Below are positions 1 to 15,200 of a stretch of 64,000 nt of DNA, piece after piece. Under the pieces are notes generated by a model, which saw only the letters and a program-made list of their open reading frames with translations, was not told the origin of the DNA and did not search any database. The translations under genes were made by a program, and so were the position numbers. The stretch is taken from the NCBI GenBank assembly GCA_020354125.1, contig CP070643.1, positions 3,291,694-3,355,693 of the forward strand, read 5' to 3'. Each line of letters begins with the position of its first letter. Within the stretch, counting starts at the first letter, position 1. Origin of the DNA: Betaproteobacteria bacterium. Its GTDB lineage: Bacteria > Pseudomonadota > Gammaproteobacteria > Burkholderiales > Eutrophovitaceae.

Positions 1-435
<435 letters not shown>

Positions 436-515: not shown

Positions 516-1574
516 TTAACCTATGCCGGCCTTCTGGGCGGCGCGATAGTTGGCGGTGTAGCCCTTGTAAACGTCAACGCCAATCGAGAAAAAGCGTGCG
601 TTTTCTTCTGACAGGGGTCGAGACCGGCGCGCCGGGTTGCCGGCCCAGATGGTGCCTGCAGCCACCTCGGTGCCCGGTGCGGTGACGGCTCCGGCGGCAA
701 CGACGCCGCCTTTGCGCACGATGGTTCCTTTGCCGACGATGGAGCCCATGCCAATGATGGCTTCGTCCTCGATCTCGCAGGCATGCATACGAACATTGTG
801 TCCCACGGTCACGCGGCGCCCGATGCGCATTGTTTCCCCTCTATCGAGGTGAATTCGCGAACCGTCCTGAATATTGCTCGCTTCGTCAACTTCGACATTT
901 GCGCCTTCAGCGTCGATCTCGACGGAAAACCAGATACTCGAATAAGGCGCCATTTTCAGATTCGCGGCAATTGAGGCCGTGGGCGCAATGTATGTTTCAT
1001 CGGTTTGAATGGCGTTTACGTTGGTACCGGGGTCGCGGTGAAACTCACCAATTGGTGTTCGGGCGCGAAGAAACTCGGCATTGTCGATGGGCGCCCGATT
1101 ACGGACTGACTCATGCAATTCGGCCAGCCTTGCAGGCGAGATCTCTTCTACCGGTTTTGCCGGCACGCCGGCATACAACCAGCCGCCTTCAAGTGTTTTG
1201 CCAGGCGGTACTACGCTCTCCGCAGCAATGGCTGCACCGGGGCCAACCACTGAGCCATCCATGACCACGGCGTGTTCGCCGAGTACGCAATGGTCTTCGA
1301 TCGTACAGGCGTGCACCAATGCATAGCGACCGACCGAGACGTGGGTGCCAACGCGTGTGCCGTAAACGCTGTCGGCAATATGCACCGTCGTCGCGTCGCC
1401 GAACCAGCACTCCGAACCGATGCGAATGTGCTCGCCATCAGCGCGCAGCGTGGCGAGTTTGCCGAAGTAACAGCCGGCACCGATCTCGGCACGGCCGATG
1501 ATTGTGACCCAATCCTCCGCCGTGACGTTGGATCCGATCTGCGGTTCAAACTCCAGATAGGGTATGACGTTCAT
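516..1574 (-). CDS. Tandem gamma-carbonic-anhydrase-like hexapeptide-repeat protein
   Basis: This 352-residue protein is built of two left-handed beta-helix (hexapeptide) halves, about residues 1-145 and 185-320. Single gamma-CA proteins are usually about 170-200 residues, so this is a fused duplication. The second half has NIQDGSRIH and VGHNVRMHAC, giving the complete zinc triad His242, His259 and His264. The first half has His65 and His88 but Arg83 where the middle zinc His should be, so only one site looks able to bind metal in the classical way. The gene starts 31 bp after hcmA stops and is probably the last gene of that operon. Its role is unknown: a carbonic anhydrase, an acyltransferase-like scaffold or a CoA-related accessory are all possible. 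Confidence 0.75.
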   Translation of the reverse strand: MNVIPYLEFEPQIGSNVTAEDWVTIIGRAEIGAGCYFGKLATLRADGEHIRIGSECWFGDATTVHIADSVYGTRVGTHVSVGRYALVHACTIEDHCVLGEHAVVMDGSVVGPGAAIAAESVVPPGKTLEGGWLYAGVPAKPVEEISPARLAELHESVRNRAPIDNAEFLRARTPIGEFHRDPGTNVNAIQTDETYIAPTASIAANLKMAPYSSIWFSVEIDAEGANVEVDEASNIQDGSRIHLDRGETMRIGRRVTVGHNVRMHACEIEDEAIIGMGSIVGKGTIVRKGGVVAAGAVTAPGTEVAAGTIWAGNPARRSRPLSEENARFFSIGVDVYKGYTANYRAAQKAGIG

Positions 1575-1605
1575 TCAGCTCCTTGTATCTCGTAACACGG
1601 CCCGA

Positions 1606-3297
1606 TTAGAACACCGGATTTTCGCGGTAAGTCCCCCAGACCGTCTTCAGTTTCTCGACGATATCACCCATCGACGCGCCTGCCCGAACCAGTTCGATGG
1701 TCACCGGCATGATGTTGCGGGTCTCGTCTTTCGCTACTGTAACCAATTCCTCCAGTAGCGCTTGTACTTTTGCCTCGTCGCGTGTTTTGCGCACCTGTTT
1801 GAGCCGCTCGATCTGGCGCTCGGCCGTAGTCGGATCGTAGGGGTGGGTTTCGATATCGACTTCCTCGTCCGTCTCGACGTACTTGTTCACGCCAATCACG
1901 GGTTTTTGTCCGCTTTGCTTGCGCAATGCTGTTTCGTAGGCGAAGTCGGAAATGTGCTTCTGGAACCAGCCTTCCTCGATCAGCATTATGGTACCGCCGC
2001 GTTCTTTCACTTCGTCAAGAATCTCAAAGATCTTATTCTCGTATTCTGTGGTCAGACTTTCGAGGTAATAAGAACCACCGAGTGGATCGATCACGCTGGC
2101 AATCCCGGTTTCATCGGCGATGACCTGCTGGGTACGCAGCGCAATCTTCATCGCTTCTTCGGTCGGGATGGCGAACGCCTCGTCCATGCCGTTCGTGTGC
2201 AAGCTCTGGGCGCCGCCGAGCACGGCAGCCAGTGCTTGCAGCGTAGTGCGCATGACGTTGACCTTGTATTGTGGTTTGGTCAGCGATGCCGCTGCGGTTT
2301 GGCAGTGGAAGCGCAAGCGCATCGATTCCGGTTTCTTCGCACCGAAGCGTTGTTTCATGATCTTGGCCCATACCCGGCGAGCAGCGCGGAACTTGGCGAT
2401 CTCCTCGAAAAAGTCCGACTGGCAGACAAAGTAAAACGCCAGCCGCGGCGCAAAGATATCGACATCCATGCCGGTTTTCAGCACTTCCTCGACGTAGGTC
2501 ACGGCGTTGGCCATGGTGAAGGCAACTTCATGAATGGGTGAGGCACCCGCTTCGCTGATGTGATACCCGGAGATGTTGATCGGGTTGTAGCGCTTCATGT
2601 TCTCGGCGCAGTAGGTGATGCAGTCGCGGACGATACGAACCGATGGCGCAATCGGATAAATGTATTCTTTTTGCGCCATGTACTCCTTGAGAATGTCAGC
2701 CTGGATGGTGCCCGAGAGCTTGTTCAGGTCATTGCCGCGTTGTTGGGCCAGCGCGACGTACATCGCCAGCAGAATCCACGCGGTGGGATTAATGGTCAGC
2801 GATACCGAGATATTCTCCAGATCGATGCCGTCGAACAGTGCTTCCATGTCGGCCAGCGTGTCGACTGCCACACCTTCGCGACCGACCTCGCCTTCGCTCA
2901 TCGCATGATCTGAGTCATAGCCCATCAGGGTCGGCATGTCGAAGTCGGTCGACAGACCAGTCTGGCCTTGCGAGATAAGGTATTTGAAGCGGTTGTTGGT
3001 GTCTTCACCTGTGCCGAAGCCGGCAATCTGACGCATGGTCCAGAAGCGGCTGCGGTACATGGTTGGGTAGGGGCCACGGGTGAACGGGTATTGACCCGGC
3101 AGACCGATGTCTTCAAGTGGTGTATCGGCGATATCGAGCGCTGTGTAAGTGCGCTTGACCGGAAAACCACCGAGCGTCTCGAATTGTTCCTCGCGCTCCG
3201 GCTGCCTTCTCAGGAAGCTATCAACCTCGTTCTTTTCCCACAGCTCCAGTTGTTCCTGTAACGCTGCGACTTGTTTCGGATCAGTTGGTGCGTTCAT
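1606..3297 (-). CDS. hcmA: 2-hydroxyisobutyryl-CoA mutase, large (substrate-binding) subunit
   Basis: This 563-residue acyl-CoA mutase TIM-barrel subunit lacks the C-terminal B12 domain, which is encoded separately at 5732-6139. In methylmalonyl-CoA mutase the substrate-contact motifs read RQYAGF and SVAFDLPT; here they read RQIAGF and STDFDMPT, giving Ile91 (codon 3025-3027) and Asp118 (codon 2944-2946). The Ile90/Asp117 pair is the known signature of Aquincola tertiaricarbonis HcmA, whose length (562) is almost the same. The predicted reaction is the reversible conversion of 2-hydroxyisobutyryl-CoA to (S)-3-hydroxybutyryl-CoA using adenosylcobalamin. I prefer the ATG at 3297, preceded by AGGGG, over an in-frame GTG at 3303. 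An automatic methylmalonyl-CoA mutase label would be misleading. Confidence 0.88.
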   Translation of the reverse strand: MNAPTDPKQVAALQEQLELWEKNEVDSFLRRQPEREEQFETLGGFPVKRTYTALDIADTPLEDIGLPGQYPFTRGPYPTMYRSRFWTMRQIAGFGTGEDTNNRFKYLISQGQTGLSTDFDMPTLMGYDSDHAMSEGEVGREGVAVDTLADMEALFDGIDLENISVSLTINPTAWILLAMYVALAQQRGNDLNKLSGTIQADILKEYMAQKEYIYPIAPSVRIVRDCITYCAENMKRYNPINISGYHISEAGASPIHEVAFTMANAVTYVEEVLKTGMDVDIFAPRLAFYFVCQSDFFEEIAKFRAARRVWAKIMKQRFGAKKPESMRLRFHCQTAAASLTKPQYKVNVMRTTLQALAAVLGGAQSLHTNGMDEAFAIPTEEAMKIALRTQQVIADETGIASVIDPLGGSYYLESLTTEYENKIFEILDEVKERGGTIMLIEEGWFQKHISDFAYETALRKQSGQKPVIGVNKYVETDEEVDIETHPYDPTTAERQIERLKQVRKTRDEAKVQALLEELVTVAKDETRNIMPVTIELVRAGASMGDIVEKLKTVWGTYRENPVF

Positions 3298-3305
3298 GTT
3301 CACCC

Positions 3306-4277
3306 CTACAAAGCAATATTGCTCATCAATTCATCAGAGGCCGCGAAAGGATCGAGCTCGCGCCTCGAAATGCGTTCGACCATGGCCGTCACACGCTCAC
3401 TGGTCGAGGTAAAGAAGCGTCCGCGCAGCAGGTCTTCCGCAGTCTTGAAAGTGCGGTACTCGGCGATCCGGCGCAGCCGTTCCGGCCCGAGTGCGGTGGA
3501 GCGGTGAGCGTCACGGTGGCGGTCAATCGTCTCGAGCAATTTGCCAATGCCTTCACCTGTCTCCGAGCTGGTTCCGACCACGGGCACTTGCCACAGCGGT
3601 TTGTCGTCCTTGTTCTTGATCGAAACATTGATACCCATCGCCAGCATGGTCTTGAGATCGGTAATCGTACGATTGGCATCCGAACGGTCACACTTGCTCA
3701 CAACGTGTATATCGGCGATTTCCAGGATCCCGGCTTTGATTGCCTGTACGTCGTCACCCAGTCCCGGTGCGGAGACGACCAGTACGCTGTGGGATGCGCG
3801 AGCAATCTCAACCTCGTCTTGCCCGACACCGACGGTTTCAATAATGATCAGATCAAAACCAGCTGCATCGAGGATGTCGACCGCTGCCAACGCAGAGCGC
3901 GCCAGCCCGCCGGTGGAGCCACGCGTGGCCATGCTACGAATATAGACGCCGTCGTCCATAGCCAGGTTAGTCATGCGGATTCGATCGCCCAGTATCGAAC
4001 CACCAGAGAATGGGCTCGACGGATCAATCGCAATAACGCCGACTCTGCGACCGTCTTCTCGGATCGCTGCCACCAGTTTGCTAACCAGGGTCGATTTGCC
4101 ACTACCCGGCACGCCGGTCAAGCCAACAATGTGTGCCTTGCCTGCGGCCTTGTAGATTTCGCCGAGTGCGGACCGCACTTCGCCGGAGCCGGCCTCAGCG
4201 CGCGACATCAGGCGCCCGGCAGCGCGCAGGTCGCCCTTGATCAGACGCTCGAACAACTCCATGGATGGTACTGGCAC
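3306..4277 (-). CDS. meaH: MeaB/ArgK-type G-protein chaperone of the mutase (MeaH-like)
   Basis: This 323-residue SIMIBI GTPase has a P-loop (GLTGVPGSGKST, about residues 53-64), a DPSSPFSGGSILGDRIRM switch segment and IETVGVGQDE, all typical of MeaB. Such proteins gate adenosylcobalamin loading and protect or reactivate B12-dependent acyl-CoA mutases in the cytoplasm. It lies between hcl and hcmA: it begins 5 nt after the hcl stop and ends 8 nt before the preferred hcmA start, so translational coupling is likely. The start shown is GTG; an ATG five codons downstream (4262) is an alternative. Its presence inside the hcm operon, as in Aquincola, supports dedication to HCM rather than to IcmF, which carries its own G domain. 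Confidence 0.9.
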   Translation of the reverse strand: MPVPSMELFERLIKGDLRAAGRLMSRAEAGSGEVRSALGEIYKAAGKAHIVGLTGVPGSGKSTLVSKLVAAIREDGRRVGVIAIDPSSPFSGGSILGDRIRMTNLAMDDGVYIRSMATRGSTGGLARSALAAVDILDAAGFDLIIIETVGVGQDEVEIARASHSVLVVSAPGLGDDVQAIKAGILEIADIHVVSKCDRSDANRTITDLKTMLAMGINVSIKNKDDKPLWQVPVVGTSSETGEGIGKLLETIDRHRDAHRSTALGPERLRRIAEYRTFKTAEDLLRGRFFTSTSERVTAMVERISRRELDPFAASDELMSNIAL

Positions 4278-4282
4278 CGTGA

Positions 4283-5716
4283 CTACCCGCTGTGCAGTTT
4301 CTGATTCAGTTCGCGGAAAACTTCGCGATCGTCCACCACGCGGCGCGCCTTGAAGTCAGTGCGCGGAATCGATCGTGGCTCGACCAGTTCGATGGCGGTT
4401 CGCAGGGCCAGCGTTTTCAGTATCCGCCGGCCGACCTCGTCCTTAAACTTCTGCGCGCGTGTGGCGTCGGCATGCGCATCGGGACTAGGCTCGACGCGCA
4501 GCAACAGCTCGTCCATCGCACCGTCGCGCGTGATGTGGATGCGGTGTTCGCCGCCGTAGTCGGGAATTTCATTCAACACTGAGTCGATCTCGCTCGGATA
4601 GACGTTTTCGCCTCGAATCGTGAACATGTCATCGATCCGCCCGAATACGCCGAGCGGCAAGCGCGGGTAGGTGCGCCCGCATGGATTTGGCTCATTCTCC
4701 CAAATGGTCAGGTCACCCGAAACCAGCCGGATCATCGGTTGCGAAGTTCTTTCCAGATGCGTGTAAACGGGCGTTCCGCGCGAACCATATGGCACGCGGC
4801 GGAAAGTCGCCGGGTCGCAGACTTCGGTATAGACCATGTCTTGCCAGAGCAACATGCCTGGTGACGATTCCAGTGTGCCGGCGGCATTCATCCACGGCGT
4901 CATTTCGGCCATTGATCCAGCATCAAACACCTTTGCGCCAAATGCTGCCTCAAGCTTCTCGATCACGGACGGAATCGAGGCGCCTGGCTCGCCGGAAAAA
5001 ATCAATTGTCTCAATCCGAAGTCACGCGCTTCGAGTCCTTCCTTGATTGCAGTTTCAGCGAGATGCAGTGCGTAAGTGGGCGTGCCATAGAACGCAGTCG
5101 GTCTTACCTGTGACATCCAACTCACGGCCCGGGCACTCATACCACTGGCGCCCGCGCCGAACGGAAATGATGTTGCGCCGAGCCGCTCGGTACCGGCCAG
5201 AGCGCCCCAGCTACCAAGATAAAGACTGAAAATGGCTGCCAGGAATACAGTGTCGCCGGGACGGACCCCCATGCCCCACATGACTCGCGCCTGTGCGTTG
5301 GCGATCGCGTCCCAGTCATTGCGGCCGATGGCGAACGCGGTTGGACGACCGGTTGTGCCCGACGTGCCGTGCACGTGATACACGTCTTCCCTGGGGATAC
5401 ACAGGTAGTCCCCGAAAGGTGGGTTGTCCGCCTGCGACGCGCGTAGGTCGGGCTTCTTGATAACCGGTACTTTCTCCTCGAAGTCCTCCAGTGATTTCAG
5501 CTGATCCGGATGGAAACCGGCCTCGTCCCAATTGCGTTTGTAGAACGGCGCGTGCTTGTAGGCGTAAGTGCATACTTCCTGCAAGCGCTTTACGATCGCT
5601 GCGTCCCGGTCACCAGCTGGCATCGTCTCACGCACCGGAAACCAGTAGCGGCTGGATGGATCAGGGCGATAGCTGCGGTCGTAACGTGGTGGAAACGTCC
5701 AGTCTTCCATTTCCAT
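4283..5716 (-). CDS. hcl: PaaK-like acyl-CoA ligase, probable 2-hydroxyisobutyrate-CoA ligase
   Basis: This 477-residue AMP-forming ligase belongs to the phenylacetate-CoA ligase (PaaK) branch. The P-loop-like motif HGTSGTTGRPTAF is near residue 118, and the C-terminal region has GRIDDMFTIRGENVYPSEID. It should convert a free acid, ATP and CoA to acyl-CoA, AMP and PPi. PaaK-like ligases of this size next to hcmA/hcmB are known as HCL and activate 2-hydroxyisobutyrate. Substrate assignment here comes from the operon (15 bp after hcmB, followed by meaH and hcmA) and not from a residue code I can read. GGGAG precedes the ATG; a second ATG lies two codons in. Confidence 0.8.
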   Translation of the reverse strand: MEMEDWTFPPRYDRSYRPDPSSRYWFPVRETMPAGDRDAAIVKRLQEVCTYAYKHAPFYKRNWDEAGFHPDQLKSLEDFEEKVPVIKKPDLRASQADNPPFGDYLCIPREDVYHVHGTSGTTGRPTAFAIGRNDWDAIANAQARVMWGMGVRPGDTVFLAAIFSLYLGSWGALAGTERLGATSFPFGAGASGMSARAVSWMSQVRPTAFYGTPTYALHLAETAIKEGLEARDFGLRQLIFSGEPGASIPSVIEKLEAAFGAKVFDAGSMAEMTPWMNAAGTLESSPGMLLWQDMVYTEVCDPATFRRVPYGSRGTPVYTHLERTSQPMIRLVSGDLTIWENEPNPCGRTYPRLPLGVFGRIDDMFTIRGENVYPSEIDSVLNEIPDYGGEHRIHITRDGAMDELLLRVEPSPDAHADATRAQKFKDEVGRRILKTLALRTAIELVEPRSIPRTDFKARRVVDDREVFRELNQKLHSG

Positions 5717-5731
5717 AGATCCGATCTCCCG

Positions 5732-6139
5732 TTAGCGGGGACCGCGCTCCTCGACGAGACGCTCGAGTGTCTCGACGATTTGCTTCGGAGGCGTGTCCTG
5801 CAACAGCAGTTCCTTTACGCCCATTTCTTTCAAAGGCGCGACGTCCTCGTCAGGCACAACGCCGCCGACTACAACGATGGTGTCTTCGGCGTCCTGCTCC
5901 TTGAGTAGCTTCATGATCTTCGGACAAATGGTCATGTGCGCGCCGGACAACAGGCTGATGCCGAGAACATCGACATCTTCCTGGACTGCAGAGTGCACCA
6001 CTTCTTCCGGGGTGCGATGCAGCCCTGTGTAGATGACGTCCATGCCGGCGTCGCGCAATGTGCGTGCGACGACTTTGACGCCACGATCGTGGCCGTCCAA
6101 CCCGACTTTGGCGAGTAGCACGCGGATAGGTGAGCTCAT
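5732..6139 (-). CDS. hcmB: 2-hydroxyisobutyryl-CoA mutase, small B12-binding subunit
   Basis: This 135-residue stand-alone cobalamin-binding domain carries the base-off/His-on motif KVGLDGHDRG (D-x-H-x-x-G; the His is the lower axial cobalt ligand), followed by the SLLSGAH and VVVGGVVPDED segments typical of mutase C-terminal domains. It pairs with the large subunit at 1606-3297 to form the holo-mutase. It is the first gene of the minus-strand operon hcmB-hcl-meaH-hcmA-gammaCA and has a good AGGAG Shine-Dalgarno sequence before its ATG. The same short domain serves isobutyryl-CoA mutases of the two-subunit type, so identity rests on the partner's Ile/Asp signature. Confidence 0.88.
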   Translation of the reverse strand: MSSPIRVLLAKVGLDGHDRGVKVVARTLRDAGMDVIYTGLHRTPEEVVHSAVQEDVDVLGISLLSGAHMTICPKIMKLLKEQDAEDTIVVVGGVVPDEDVAPLKEMGVKELLLQDTPPKQIVETLERLVEERGPR

Positions 6140-8845: not shown

Positions 8846-11800
8846 TTACATGTTTCTGCGATACTTTCCGCCGACTTCGAACAAAGCGTGAGTAATCTGG
8901 CCCAGTGAGCAAACGCGCACTGCATCCATCAGCACCTCGAACACATTGCCATCGTCGATGACGGTCTGCTTGAGCCGATCGAGCATCGGACCGCTCTCGG
9001 CCTTGTGCGCTTCGTGGAATTCCGATAGCCGCTTGAGCTGTGACTGCTTCTCTTCTTCCGACGAGCGGATCAGATCAACTGTCTCCGGTATCGAATCGCC
9101 ATGCGGATTGCGGAAGGTATTGACGCCGATGATGGGGTGCGAGCCGTCGTGTTTCTTGTGCTCGTAGTACATCGACTCTTCCTGAATCTTGCCGCGCTGG
9201 TAGCCCAGCTCCATGGCGCCGAGTACACCGCCGCGTTCGGATATCGATTCGAATTCTTTCAGTACTGCTTCTTCGACCAGATCAGTCAGTTCCTCGACAA
9301 TGAAGCTGCCCTGATTGGGGTTCTCGTTCTTCGCTAGTCCCCATTCGCGATTGATGATGAGCTGGATTGCCATTGCACGCCGCACGCTTTCCTCAGTCGG
9401 TGTCGTAATCGCTTCATCGTAAGCGTTGGTATGCAGCGAGTTGGCATTGTCATAGGTTGCGATCAGTGCCTGCAGCGTGGTGCGAATGTCGTTGAATGCG
9501 ATTTCCTGCGCGTGCAACGAACGGCCTGAAGTCTGGCAGTGATACTTTAGTTTCTGCGAGCGTTCATTGGCACCGTAACGGTTTTTCATTGCGACCGCCC
9601 AGATGCGCCGCGCAACGCGGCCGATTACCGTGTACTCGGGGTCCATGCCGTTACTGAAGAAAAAGCTCAGGTTTGGCGCGAAATCGTCGATGTGCATGCC
9701 GCGCGCCAGATAAGCTTCGACAAAAGTGAAGCCGTTACTCAGCGTGAACGCCAACTGCGAGATGGGATTGGCACCCGCTTCGGCGATGTGATAACCGGAA
9801 ATTGACACCGAGTAGAAATTCTTCACGTTGTGATGGGTGAAGTGCTCCTGAATGTCTCCCATCACCTTGAGGCTGAATTCGGTCGAGAAGATGCAGGTGT
9901 TCTGGCCCTGATCTTCCTTGAGAATGTCTGCCTGAACGGTGCCGCGCACGGTCTCAAGCGTCCATTCCTTGATTTTCTCTGCTTCGTCTTCGGTCGGTTC
10001 GCGGCCGTTGTCTTCGCGGAACTTGTCGAGCTGCTGGTCGATCGTCGTGTTCATGAACATCGCCAGGATGGTCGGTGCCGGACCGTTGATGGTCATTGAT
10101 ACGCTGTTATTGGGTGCGCACAGATCAAACCCCGAGTAAAGCACCTTCATGTCGTCGAGCGTGGCGATCGACACCCCGGAATTGCCAACCTTGCCATAAA
10201 TGTCCGGGCGCAGATCCGGGTCGAAACCATATAGCGTTACCGAATCAAAAGCGGTTGACAGCCGCTTCGCCGGCATGTCCTTCGAGAGCAGATGGAACCG
10301 TTTGTTGGTTCGGAAGGCATCACCTTCTCCCGCAAACATCCGCGTCGGGTCTTCATTCTCCCGTTTGAAGGCGAACACCCCGCCAGTGAACGGGAACGAC
10401 CCCGGCACGTTTTCCAGCATCATCCACTTCAGTAGCTCGCCGTGATCCTCAAAGCGCGGCAGCGCAACGCGCGGGATGTCGGTACCCGACAAGGATTTGT
10501 AGGTGAGCTTGGTGCGAATCTCCTTGTCGCGGATTCTCACCACGTATTCGTCGCCGGCGTAGGCCTTCTGCATGTCCGGCCACATGGCAAGCAGTTTCTT
10601 CGCGCCAGCATCGAGTTTGCTGTCGCGTGCATCGGCGAGCACGCTCAGGTTACCGACCTCTTCACCGCACTCGGCGGACAGCATCGCCTTGGCCGCGCGC
10701 AACTGTTGGCGTTCACGCGCGATGTGCGCCTGTTCGAGCGCGTGCTGTTTATAGCCGCGCACTGTTGATGCGATGTCGGCAAGATAGCGCGCCCGCTCTG
10801 GCGGCACCACACTGGACACTTTGCTCGAAGCGCGCAGCGAAACTTTCTCCAGGCGCCCCTTCTTCAGTTTCAGGCCGTTCGGCTTGAGGGCTTCGACGAT
10901 GGCCTGATACAAGGCCGTCACGCCATCGTCGTTGAACCTTGAAGCAATGGTGCCGAACACCGGCATCGTGTCGGGAGCCTGCGAGAACAGTTGGTGATTA
11001 CGTTGATACTGTTTGGATACGTCGCGCAGTGCATCTTCGGCACCACGGCGATCAAACTTGTTGATGGCAACGAAGTCAGCGAAATCGAGCATGTCGATTT
11101 TCTCGAGTTGACTGGCAGCGCCGTACTCCGGCGTCATCACATAGAGCGAAGTATCGACGTACGGCACGATCGCTGCGTCGCCCTGTCCAATTCCCGAGGT
11201 CTCGACAATGATCAGATCAAAACCAGCACATTTGCACGACGCAATCGCGTCGGGCAGACAGGCAGCGATCTCGCTGCCACCGCCGCGGGTGGCGAGCGAG
11301 CGCATATAGATGCGCTCGCCAGACAAGGCATTCATCCGGATCCGGTCACCGAGCAGCGCGCCGCCGGTCTTGCGCCGTGACGGATCGACAGCGATGACGG
11401 CGATGTTGAGTCGGTCGGACTGATCGAGGCGGAAGCGGCGGATCAACTCGTCAGTGAGCGAGGATTTGCCTGCGCCCCCGGTGCCGGTGATTCCCAGCAC
11501 GGGTACCTTGGCGAGCTGTTCAGCTTTTGCCAGCAACGCCTTGTGCAGTTTTTCGGGTAGCGCCGAACCTTCGATCGCGGTAATCATCCGGGCAAGGTCG
11601 CGATGAGTCTCGGTAGAGAGATTGTCGAGCGTAGTTGGCAGTTCGGCGCAAAGATCCTGGTTGGCACGCGCCAGCATGTCATCGATCATGCCTTGCAGCC
11701 CCATGGTCGCACCATCCTCCGGCGAATAGACGCGGGCTACACCATAGTCATGCAACTCTTTTACTTCTGCCGGAACAATCACGCCGCCCCCGCCACCGAA

Positions 11801-12109
11801 GACGCGGATATTGTCAGCGCCGCGCTCGCGCAGCAGGTCGATGACATATTTGAAGTACTCGATGTGTCCGCCCTGGTAGGAGCTGACGGCAATGCCATGC
11901 ACATCCTCTTGTAGGGCCGCGGTGACGATTTCCTCCACCGAACGGTTGTGGCCGAGATGGATGACCTCGGCGCCACTGGCCTGCAGCATGCGGCGGATGA
12001 TATTGATCGATGCGTCGTGTCCGTCAAACAGGCTGGCAGCCGTCACGAAACGGATTCTTTGGGTCGCACCGTGTTTGGCGGCGGCGGGCTTGAGGCTTAG
12101 ATCGGTCAT
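8846..12109 (-). CDS. icmF: Fused isobutyryl-CoA mutase IcmF (B12 domain, G-protein chaperone, mutase barrel)
   Basis: The 1087-residue protein has three parts: an N-terminal cobalamin domain with DGHDAS (His31 is the axial ligand), a MeaB-like GTPase with P-loop GTGGAGKSS (about 209-217) and [10 protein letters not shown], and a C-terminal acyl-CoA mutase barrel. The substrate-site residues Phe592 (RMFAGEG) and Gln736 (DQGQNT) match Phe598 and Gln742 of Cupriavidus IcmF at a fixed offset of six, supporting isobutyryl-CoA to n-butyryl-CoA isomerisation (isovaleryl/pivalyl-CoA is a known side activity). A LiuR-like palindrome lies 80-100 bp upstream. The 2-oxoacid ferredoxin oxidoreductase gene immediately upstream could supply isobutyryl-CoA from the valine 2-oxoacid. 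Confidence 0.95.
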
Positions 12110-12229: not shown

Positions 12230-15200
12230 TCAGGCTGCTCGTACCAGTGTGGAGACGTTGAGCTGGCAAAGCAAGGCTTCACGATCGCGATAGAAAGCTT
12301 CGACATTGTCGGCCTTGACGTGACCAAAGCCGCGAACGTGTTCAGGTAGTGACGCGAGCTTCAGAGCGATCTCGCCGTTGTCGGCTGACAGCACCTGCAG
12401 GCAATGGTCAATGGTTGACTCGTAGTCGCGGATCAGCTGCCGTTCTGCTTTGCGCTCTTCAGTATGGCCAAACGGGTCGAAGGCGGTTTGGCGCAGCCAT
12501 TTGAGTCGGGCGAGCAAGGCAAAAACCGGTTTCATCCAGGCGCCGTACTCTGCTTTGACGGGCTGGCCGTTGCTGTCACGCTTGGCGAGGAATGGCGGTG
12601 CCAGGTTGTATTTGATACTGAAGTTGCCCTCGAAAGCAGCGCGCAAACGCTTCTCGAATTGTCGGTCGGAATACAGTCGTGCAACCTCATATTCGTCCTT
12701 GTATGCCATCAGCTTGAACAGGTTCTTCGCCACCATCTTGGCGAACGAATCATCCAGACCGGCTTTGTCGGAGCTGGCTCGCACTTTCTCGACGATGTCG
12801 CGATAGCGCCGGGCATACGCGGCGTTTTGATACGCAGTGAGAAACTCGGCGCGGCGCTCAACCAGCTTGTCCAGCGTCTCTGGCATCGTCACGATCACCG
12901 GTTGAGCGGGGGCGACGACTCTTTCAACGGCCTTCAAATCAAACGCGGCGCGACGGCCCCACAAGAATGAATGTTTGTTCGCGTCGACCGCGACACCGTT
13001 CAACTCGATTGCGCGTATCAGCGAGTCTTCGGTCAGCGGGATGAGACCTTTCTGGAACGCGAAGCCAAGCATGAACAGATTGGTGGCGATGGAATCACCC
13101 ATCAGCGCCGTGGCGATGCGTGTGGCATCGACAAAATGAACCTTGCCATCGACTGCCTCTTCCAGCTGGTCACGCACGCGGTCCGTCGGGAAGGTCCAAT
13201 CTGCGTTTTGCGCGAAATGTCCGGTTGGTTGCTCGTGTGAATTGATGATTGCCACGGTGCGCCCGGCGCGCGTTTTGGCAAGTGCTTCCCAGGCACCTGC
13301 GGTGAGCATATCGCAGCCGAGGATGAGGTCAGCCTCTCCAGCGGCAATACGCTGTGCGCGGATGTCTTCTGGGGCTCGTGCAATGCGCACATGCGAGGTG
13401 ACTGCTGCGTTCTTCTGTGACATTCCGGTCATGTCGAGAGCGGAGGCGCCTTTGCCCTCGAGATGAGTGGCCATGCCGAGCAATGCGCCGACCGTGATGA
13501 CGCCAGTGCCGCCGATACCGTTAATGAGAATGTTGTATGTCGACGATGTGAGTTGCGGCAACTCAGGTTGCGGCAGGGGGGGAAACGCGGTTTGGTCCGC
13601 ATTGTTGGATTTTTTTTGCTTTCTGGGCTTTCCGCCATTGACGGTGACGAAGCTCGGGCAAAAGCCTTTGACGCAAGAATAGTCCTGATTGCATGCGGAC
13701 TGATCGATCATTCGCTTGCGTCCGAACTCAGTCTCCAGTGGCAGAAGTGATACACAGTTGGACTGCACACCACAGTCACCACATCCCTCGCAGACAGCTT
13801 CATTAATGAACAGCCGTTTTGTTGGTGTCTCGAGTTCGCCTTTTTTGCGGCGACGGCGTTTTTCGGCAGCACAGGTCTGGTCATAGATCAATACTGAAAC
13901 GCCGGGCACCTCGCGCAATTCCTTTTGCACTTGATCGAGGCCGCTGCGATCGTATACCGGTACCGTGGACGGCAACCCAGACTCACTGGAATAGCGCGAC
14001 ACATCTTCGCTGACGACGACAATGCGCTTAATACCTTCGCCGGCCAGCTGCTGGGCGATCATTGGTACGGTGAGTGTGCCGTCAATCGGCTGGCCGCCTG
14101 TCATGGCGACGGCGTCGTTGTAAAGCAGTTTGTATGTGATATTGACGTTTGCGGCCTGCGCGGCGCGAATTGCCAACAATCCAGAGTGGAAGTAGGTGCC
14201 GTCACCGAGATTGGCGAACACATGATTGCGCTTCGAGAACGGTGCTTGTCCGATCCAGCTCGCACCTTCGCCGCCCATATGACAAAACGTCTTGGTGCTA
14301 TTGGGGTAGATCGCGGTAGCCATGATATGGCAGCCGATTCCACCCAATGCCAAGCTGCCCTGGGGCACTTTGGTCGAGGTGTTGTGAGGGCAGCCCGAGC
14401 AATACCATGCCGGACGCGGCGGTGTGTCGACCGTCTTTTGTAGCGCCGCTTCCTTGGCATCGAGAAAGGTCAGACGTGCCTTGATCAAATCACTTTGATG
14501 AAAACGTGCAATGCGCGAGGCAATTACGCGCGCAATCTGCGCGATAGAGAAATCCGATTTTGCTGGCAACAGCCACTCGCCACGCGGGGGAACCCATTCG
14601 CCTTTGTCGTCAAACTTGCCGATGATGCGTGGCCGAACATCCGGGTCCCAGTTGTACAGCTGCTCCTTGAGCTGGTACTCGACCAGTTGGCGCTTTTCCT
14701 CGACCACCAGAATCTCGTCGAGACCGCGTGAAAACTCACGAATGCCGTCGGGTTCAAGCGGCCACGGCATCGATACCTTGAACAAGCGAATACCAATTGT
14801 GGCGGCCTGTGACTCGGCGATACCGAGCTCTTCCAGTGCTTCGAGCACATCCATGTACGATTTACCTGACGCGACGATACCGAGCCGGGCGTTGGGAGAA
14901 TCGATGGTAGTGCGGTTGAGCCGGTTGGCGCGCGAATAGGCGAGCGCGGCGTAGATCTTGTAATCCTGCATCAACGCTTCCTGCTTGCGTGCCTGAACGC
15001 GCAGCCCGTCGCTGGACCATTGGCAATTCAGACCTCCTTCCGGCATGTCAAAGTCTTCGGGAAGCAGGATTTCCGGCTTGCCGATGCTGGCATCAATGGT
15101 GGCAGACGATTCGACGGTGTCGGCAAGCGCCTTGAATCCGACTGCACAACCAGAAAAGCGCGACATGGCGATGCCGTGCAGCCCCAGTTCCATGTATTCG

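Follow-up and report, generated by a model that had tools for sequence, protein, structure and literature searches.

The gene that ends the 2-hydroxyisobutyryl-CoA mutase (HCM) operon in the window, by which we mean the whole 64,000-nucleotide stretch of DNA analysed here, encodes a 352-aa protein made of two fused gamma-carbonic anhydrase (gamma-CA) halves, and it is best explained overall, with a probability of about 0.6, as a fused split-site zinc enzyme of the gamma-CA fold, most likely with the role of a PaaY-like CoA-thioesterase. Among its full-length relatives, eight active-site positions are partitioned between the halves in complementary invariant sets, the family traces to one ancient fusion, and the genes lie at the ends of HCM operons belonging to one clade of HcmA. 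The fusion is an unstudied component of the 2-hydroxyisobutyrate pathway, which degrades the fuel additives MTBE and tert-butyl alcohol, and its gene occurs in model strains with operons that have long been under study. An earlier note on this DNA knew of no described role for such a protein in mutase operons, and our search of the open-access literature, with most subscription journals lying outside it, likewise found no paper that deals with the two-domain fusion, with the division of its site or with its position in HCM operons. The features of the locus are as follows.

516..1574, minus strand: two-domain gamma-CA-like protein, 352 aa, ATG start (ORF, Pfam, NCBIfam)
1125..1574, minus strand: N-half left-handed beta-helix, residues 1-150, with Arg44, Asp46, His65, Arg83 and His88
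516..1001, minus strand: C-half left-handed beta-helix and C-terminal helix, residues 192-352, with Asn234, Gln236, Asp237, His242, His259 and His264
1579..1582, minus strand: GGAG ribosome-binding site of the gamma-CA gene, in the gap 3' of hcmA
1606..3303, minus strand: hcmA, 2-hydroxyisobutyryl-CoA mutase large subunit (4R3U match, Ile90/Asp117)
3306..4277, minus strand: meaH, MeaB-type mutase-associated GTPase (Pfam, NCBIfam)
4283..5716, minus strand: hcl, PaaK-type acyl-CoA ligase (Pfam, NCBIfam)
5732..6139, minus strand: hcmB, B12-binding small subunit (Pfam, NCBIfam)
8846..12109, minus strand: IcmF-type fused B12-binding/GTPase/acyl-CoA mutase, upstream of the HCM operon

The neighbour of the gamma-CA gene is a genuine HCM large subunit, scoring 1021 bits against the solved Aquincola enzyme 4R3U and carrying the Ile90/Asp117 signature, and with hcmB, meaH and hcl present the operon reads hcmB-hcl-meaH-hcmA and then the gamma-CA gene, all on the minus strand. 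The earlier note had placed a fused double gamma-CA at the end of an HCM operon, 31 bp after hcmA, and both the placement and the two-halved architecture are borne out by the open reading frame, Pfam, NCBIfam and the sequence itself. The case for co-transcription with hcmA is limited to this 31-bp spacing, the shared strand and the ribosome-binding site, whose GGAG ends four bases 5' of the ATG; these are consistent with a common transcript. The same four genes, hcmB, hcl, meaH and hcmA, make up the canonical operon of Aquincola and Methylibium, for which the published description (PMC7176365) names no gamma-CA, although the Methylibium cluster does contain one. The complete IcmF gene just upstream of the operon places two B12 acyl-CoA mutases side by side.

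Both halves have the gamma-CA fold by sequence and profile, that is, a hexapeptide left-handed beta-helix followed by a C-terminal helix, and databases already label such proteins "gamma carbonic anhydrase family protein". Pfam Hexapep matches four stretches of the protein, and the best NCBIfam matches are gamma carbonic anhydrase (1.1e-51, two stretches), PaaY (1.4e-34, two stretches) and CaiE, in that order. The curated cut-offs lie well above its scores, at 250 bits against 175 for the gamma carbonic anhydrase model NF050158 and at 319.6 bits against 119 for the PaaY thioesterase model TIGR02287; the protein is therefore at most PaaY-like in its action and not a member of the PaaY family. 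PaaY, from the phenylacetate operon, and CaiE, from the carnitine operon, are likewise gamma-CA-fold proteins of acyl-CoA catabolic operons, but they are single-domain proteins with all three zinc histidines in one chain, and the window protein falls far under both cut-offs. A separate single-domain PaaY/CaiE-like gamma-CA (locus L002, G000:C1:3258056-3258547) is encoded in the same genome about 34 kb before the window.

The residues of the zinc site were compared in an alignment of 22 full-length two-domain proteins, with positions given in Methanosarcina Cam numbering and matched by motif and by alignment to plant gamma-CA1; a profile alignment to Cam itself (1THJ) was left out because it appears to be one coil out of register. 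The codons for the positions of the three zinc histidines are as follows.

1380..1382, minus strand: His65 codon, equivalent to Cam His81, His in 22/22
1326..1328, minus strand: Arg83 codon, equivalent to Cam His117, His in 0/22
1311..1313, minus strand: His88 codon, equivalent to Cam His122, His in 22/22
849..851, minus strand: His242 codon, equivalent to Cam His81, His in 3/22, the window and its 2 nearest relatives
798..800, minus strand: His259 codon, equivalent to Cam His117, His in 22/22
783..785, minus strand: His264 codon, equivalent to Cam His122, His in 4/22, the window and its 3 nearest relatives

The N-half keeps Arg59, Asp61, His81 and His122 (Cam numbering) in all 22 proteins and lacks His117 in every one, mostly with Arg in its place. 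The C-half, conversely, keeps Asn73, Gln75, Asp76 and His117 throughout and has lost His81 in 19/22 and His122 in 18/22, with varied replacements. Each of the eight site positions is thus invariant in exactly one half and none is invariant in both. No N-half (0/22) has all three zinc histidines, and among the C-halves only those of the window and its two nearest relatives do; at the level of sequence, the three that are invariant in all 22 proteins are His65 and His88 from the N-half and His259 from the C-half.

The metal in a gamma-CA trimer has ligands from two monomers, with His81 and His122 belonging to one and His117 to its neighbour (PMC4519908). With this 2+1 division of the zinc histidines between subunits, and with the fusion keeping one face of the site in each half, a composite site between the N- and C-domains is the best reading, and the presence of two zinc histidines in one half and the third in the other across the 22 relatives argues that the two halves probably form a single active site together, as opposed to one working and one dead copy. 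The alignment upholds the earlier note in placing His242, His259 and His264 in the second half and Arg83 at the middle position of the first; the catalytic/pseudo-catalytic pair that the note drew from these residues is not sustained. It fails once the relatives are aligned: Arg44, Asp46 and two zinc histidines are invariant in the half taken as broken, the N-half, while the C-half, taken as complete, retains the middle histidine alone in 18/22. The two sets are complementary and correspond to the opposite faces of a single site between subunits.

We propose an obligately heteromeric zinc enzyme of the gamma-CA fold with its two domains covalently fused. One face of the active site between subunits would come from the N-domain (His65 and His88, along with Arg44 and Asp46) and the opposite face from the C-domain (His259, along with Asn234, Gln236 and Asp237), so that zinc would sit at a contact between an N-domain and a C-domain, whether of the same chain or of two different ones. 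That the two domains pack as in gamma-CA trimers and bind zinc at this junction seems to us highly probable, and the conservation of the site residues speaks for a metal enzyme. Against a composite site it can be said that a three-fold trimer built from two-domain chains would need an asymmetric arrangement, or else the use of a single N-C interface. Structure prediction gave AlphaFold models with pLDDT of 58 and 53, from an alignment that is shallow on the N-half, and no usable N-C interface; both being poor, the interface is argued from the sequence and the known trimer geometry. In the first of these low-confidence models, the order of the strands assigns the N-set to one corner of the prism and the C-set to another, which supports a composite site, short of proof, and Foldseek with the same model matches gamma-CAs, which confirms the fold only.

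A precedent for such a site exists in plant mitochondrial complex I, where only one of the three gamma-CA interfaces has all the ligands and zinc (PMC7447434; PMC7567890), with Gln and Arg also seen around the zinc site (PMC7567890). The plant heterotrimer (CA1/CA2/CAL2) likewise combines degenerate subunits, just one of its interfaces having a complete zinc site, but its subunits are separate gene products on complex I, whereas the window has two domains in one bacterial chain encoded at the end of a mutase operon. The CamH-type gamma-CAs (YrdA 3TIO, 3R1W) have the fold and all active-site positions in common with the fusion and differ in being one-domain homotrimers with both faces of the site on each chain. 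The fusion, with one separately mutable face per half, offers a single-chain system for the function and evolution of gamma-CA interface sites.

What such a site would do is less clear than its likely architecture. Our preferred role, held tentatively and at somewhat under even odds, is that of a zinc-dependent, PaaY-like CoA-thioesterase, which would release CoA when acyl-CoA intermediates of the 2-hydroxyisobutyryl-CoA/isobutyryl-CoA pathways stall. The same composite site might instead belong to a genuine carbonic anhydrase that supplies or removes pathway bicarbonate, a possibility that we rate as serious if less probable. All of the carbonic anhydrase positions compared (the zinc histidines, Arg59, Asp61, Asn73, Gln75 and Asp76, in Cam numbering) have one conserved copy between the two halves, but PaaY-type thioesterases retain the same site residues as carbonic anhydrases, so these residues do not separate the two activities. 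In one HCM cluster without the fusion (locus L108, genome G1198), a beta-CA gene (13916-14608, minus strand) lies between GntR and TPP-lyase-like genes, which speaks for carbonic anhydrase and against the thioesterase, and in three other HCM clusters the fusion directly follows a TPP-lyase-like gene; the beta-CA beside HCM is, however, a single locus found after the fact. It may represent a non-homologous replacement of the two-domain gamma-CA. A beta-CA was not detected in 3/10 close genomes, whose assemblies are incomplete, but the window's own genome does carry one, and the HCM route has no carboxylation step that calls for bicarbonate. We lean slightly toward the thioesterase on account of the acyl-CoA operon setting, the survival of the fusion with IcmF, the rank of PaaY as second-best NCBIfam match, and the precedent of PaaY, a zinc-containing CoA-thioesterase of the gamma-CA fold from an acyl-CoA operon (PMC9493321). 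Counted on the same side are genes for an acyl-CoA dehydrogenase and a phytanoyl-CoA dioxygenase that lie close to the two mutase-free alphaproteobacterial copies.

The distribution of the fusion was followed by tblastn against plasmid records, in a 399-genome sample of the window's order and in 205 alphaproteobacterial genomes. Within the order, the full-length fusion occurs in 15/399 genomes; HCM is found in 11/399, spread over six families, and each of these 11 has the fusion, adjoining hcmA or one gene away, as compared with 4 of the 388 genomes without HCM. HCM clusters with a full-length relative also occur in Methylibium petroleiphilum PM1, Xanthobacter autotrophicus Py2 and Agrobacterium deltaense; for a further relative, from Methylobacterium bullatum, no mutase was detected in the neighbourhood of the plasmid tblastn match. 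The alphaproteobacterial sample yielded the full-length fusion in 2/205 genomes, both without a mutase nearby, and HCM-like genes without the fusion in 3/205. The loci without the fusion were found with an HcmA query and some fusion loci with the fusion gene itself; only the order-level and plasmid comparisons, which used both queries, are free of query bias. Every sampled HCM operon of one HcmA clade (SH-aLRT 94), Methylibium PM1 and Xanthobacter Py2 included, has the fusion, and this clade also contains the characterised Aquincola enzyme, whose own operon lies outside the collections searched. The association with HCM, which tabulation of the neighbours shows to be real, is therefore strong, confined to one HcmA clade and not exclusive.

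Ten sampled HCM or HCM-like loci lack the fusion, which rules out gamma-CA as a universal HCM component and means that the fusion is not needed for HCM as such. The notion that these loci are false HCMs is rejected for 8 of the 10, which have Ile90/Asp117; the other two have Val/Asp. Two loci (L068, L069) encode HcmA-like mutases with Val for Ile90 and no detected hcl, possibly of different acyl-CoA specificity. Three HCM operons that do carry the fusion (L054, L055, L056), from genomes of ~1.8-1.9 Mb, contain hcmB, meaH, hcmA and the gamma-CA gene but no hcl, so that the CoA ester must come from elsewhere. Around the gamma-CA gene, the Methylibium PM1 cluster (L070, 9625-13603) encodes a TPP-dependent lyase-like protein and two cobalamin adenosyltransferases.

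The company that the fusion keeps could also be explained by a non-catalytic scaffold or chaperone of the B12 acyl-CoA mutases HCM and IcmF that has lost its enzyme activity. A mutase gene is close by in 19/22 fusion loci, and in four HCM-less genomes of one genus (L057-L060) the fusion is kept directly behind IcmF, with the HCM genes missing where sister genomes carry them; a plant gamma-CA, moreover, is required for complex I even when inactive (PMC7567890). We nonetheless consider a scaffold unlikely, as invariant zinc histidines on complementary faces would be unexpected in a dead protein and three of the homologues have no mutase near them. Pairwise dN/dS is 0.05-0.20 wherever dS could be estimated, HCM-less genomes included (0.08-0.20 among L057-L060), and the fusion genes of the latter remain under purifying selection.

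The N-halves form one clade and the C-halves another (SH-aLRT 99), the C-half branching among single-domain gamma-CAs, and since each half is monophyletic one fusion event is the simplest reading. The window's genus is nested within the C-half clade and has histidines at two positions that its relatives have lost; its complete C-half triad is, in the alignment, a peculiarity of the genus and not a family trait. It might suggest that the C-half forms an active homotrimer site beside an inactive N-half, given that the window's C-half has His242, His259 and His264 all to itself, but one or both of the His242 and His264 positions are lost in 19/22 relatives, the N-half positions of His65 and His88 in none, and the Arg59/Asp61 pair is missing from the C-half in 22/22 (an isolated Arg occurs in L106 and an isolated Asp in L062), which makes this very improbable. 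Under a composite N/C site the full triad of the window's genus may instead permit an extra C-C site. By fewest changes we favour the view that His242 and His264 were regained there, with several independent losses as the alternative; the Tyr codon TAT in L053 and the Asn codon AAT in L054 are each one base from the His codon CAT. The fuller history, in which fusion and complementary ligand loss would have turned a bacterial gamma-CA family into an obligate split-site accessory enzyme of HCM/IcmF, with one genus regaining a homomeric zinc site, is offered as plausible at a little less than an even chance.

That such proteins are common hexapeptide acyl-/acetyltransferases labelled gamma-CA and unrelated to mutase operons, the outcome against which the earlier note had set its proposal, can be dismissed as having a negligible chance, since the hexapeptide repeats are common to both groups but gamma-CA, PaaY and CaiE outscore all acetyltransferase families in NCBIfam, the halves score best as gamma-CA/PaaY-type, and the best solved relatives are gamma-CA-type proteins.

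IS110-family transposase remnants run towards the end of the gamma-CA gene, converging with it, in the window (1-435, plus strand) and in locus L051 (4717-5829, plus strand), with a second IS110-like open reading frame ~2.5 kb further out; in the relatives L053 and L054 the next gene after the gamma-CA gene, on the same strand, encodes a MATE-type transporter.
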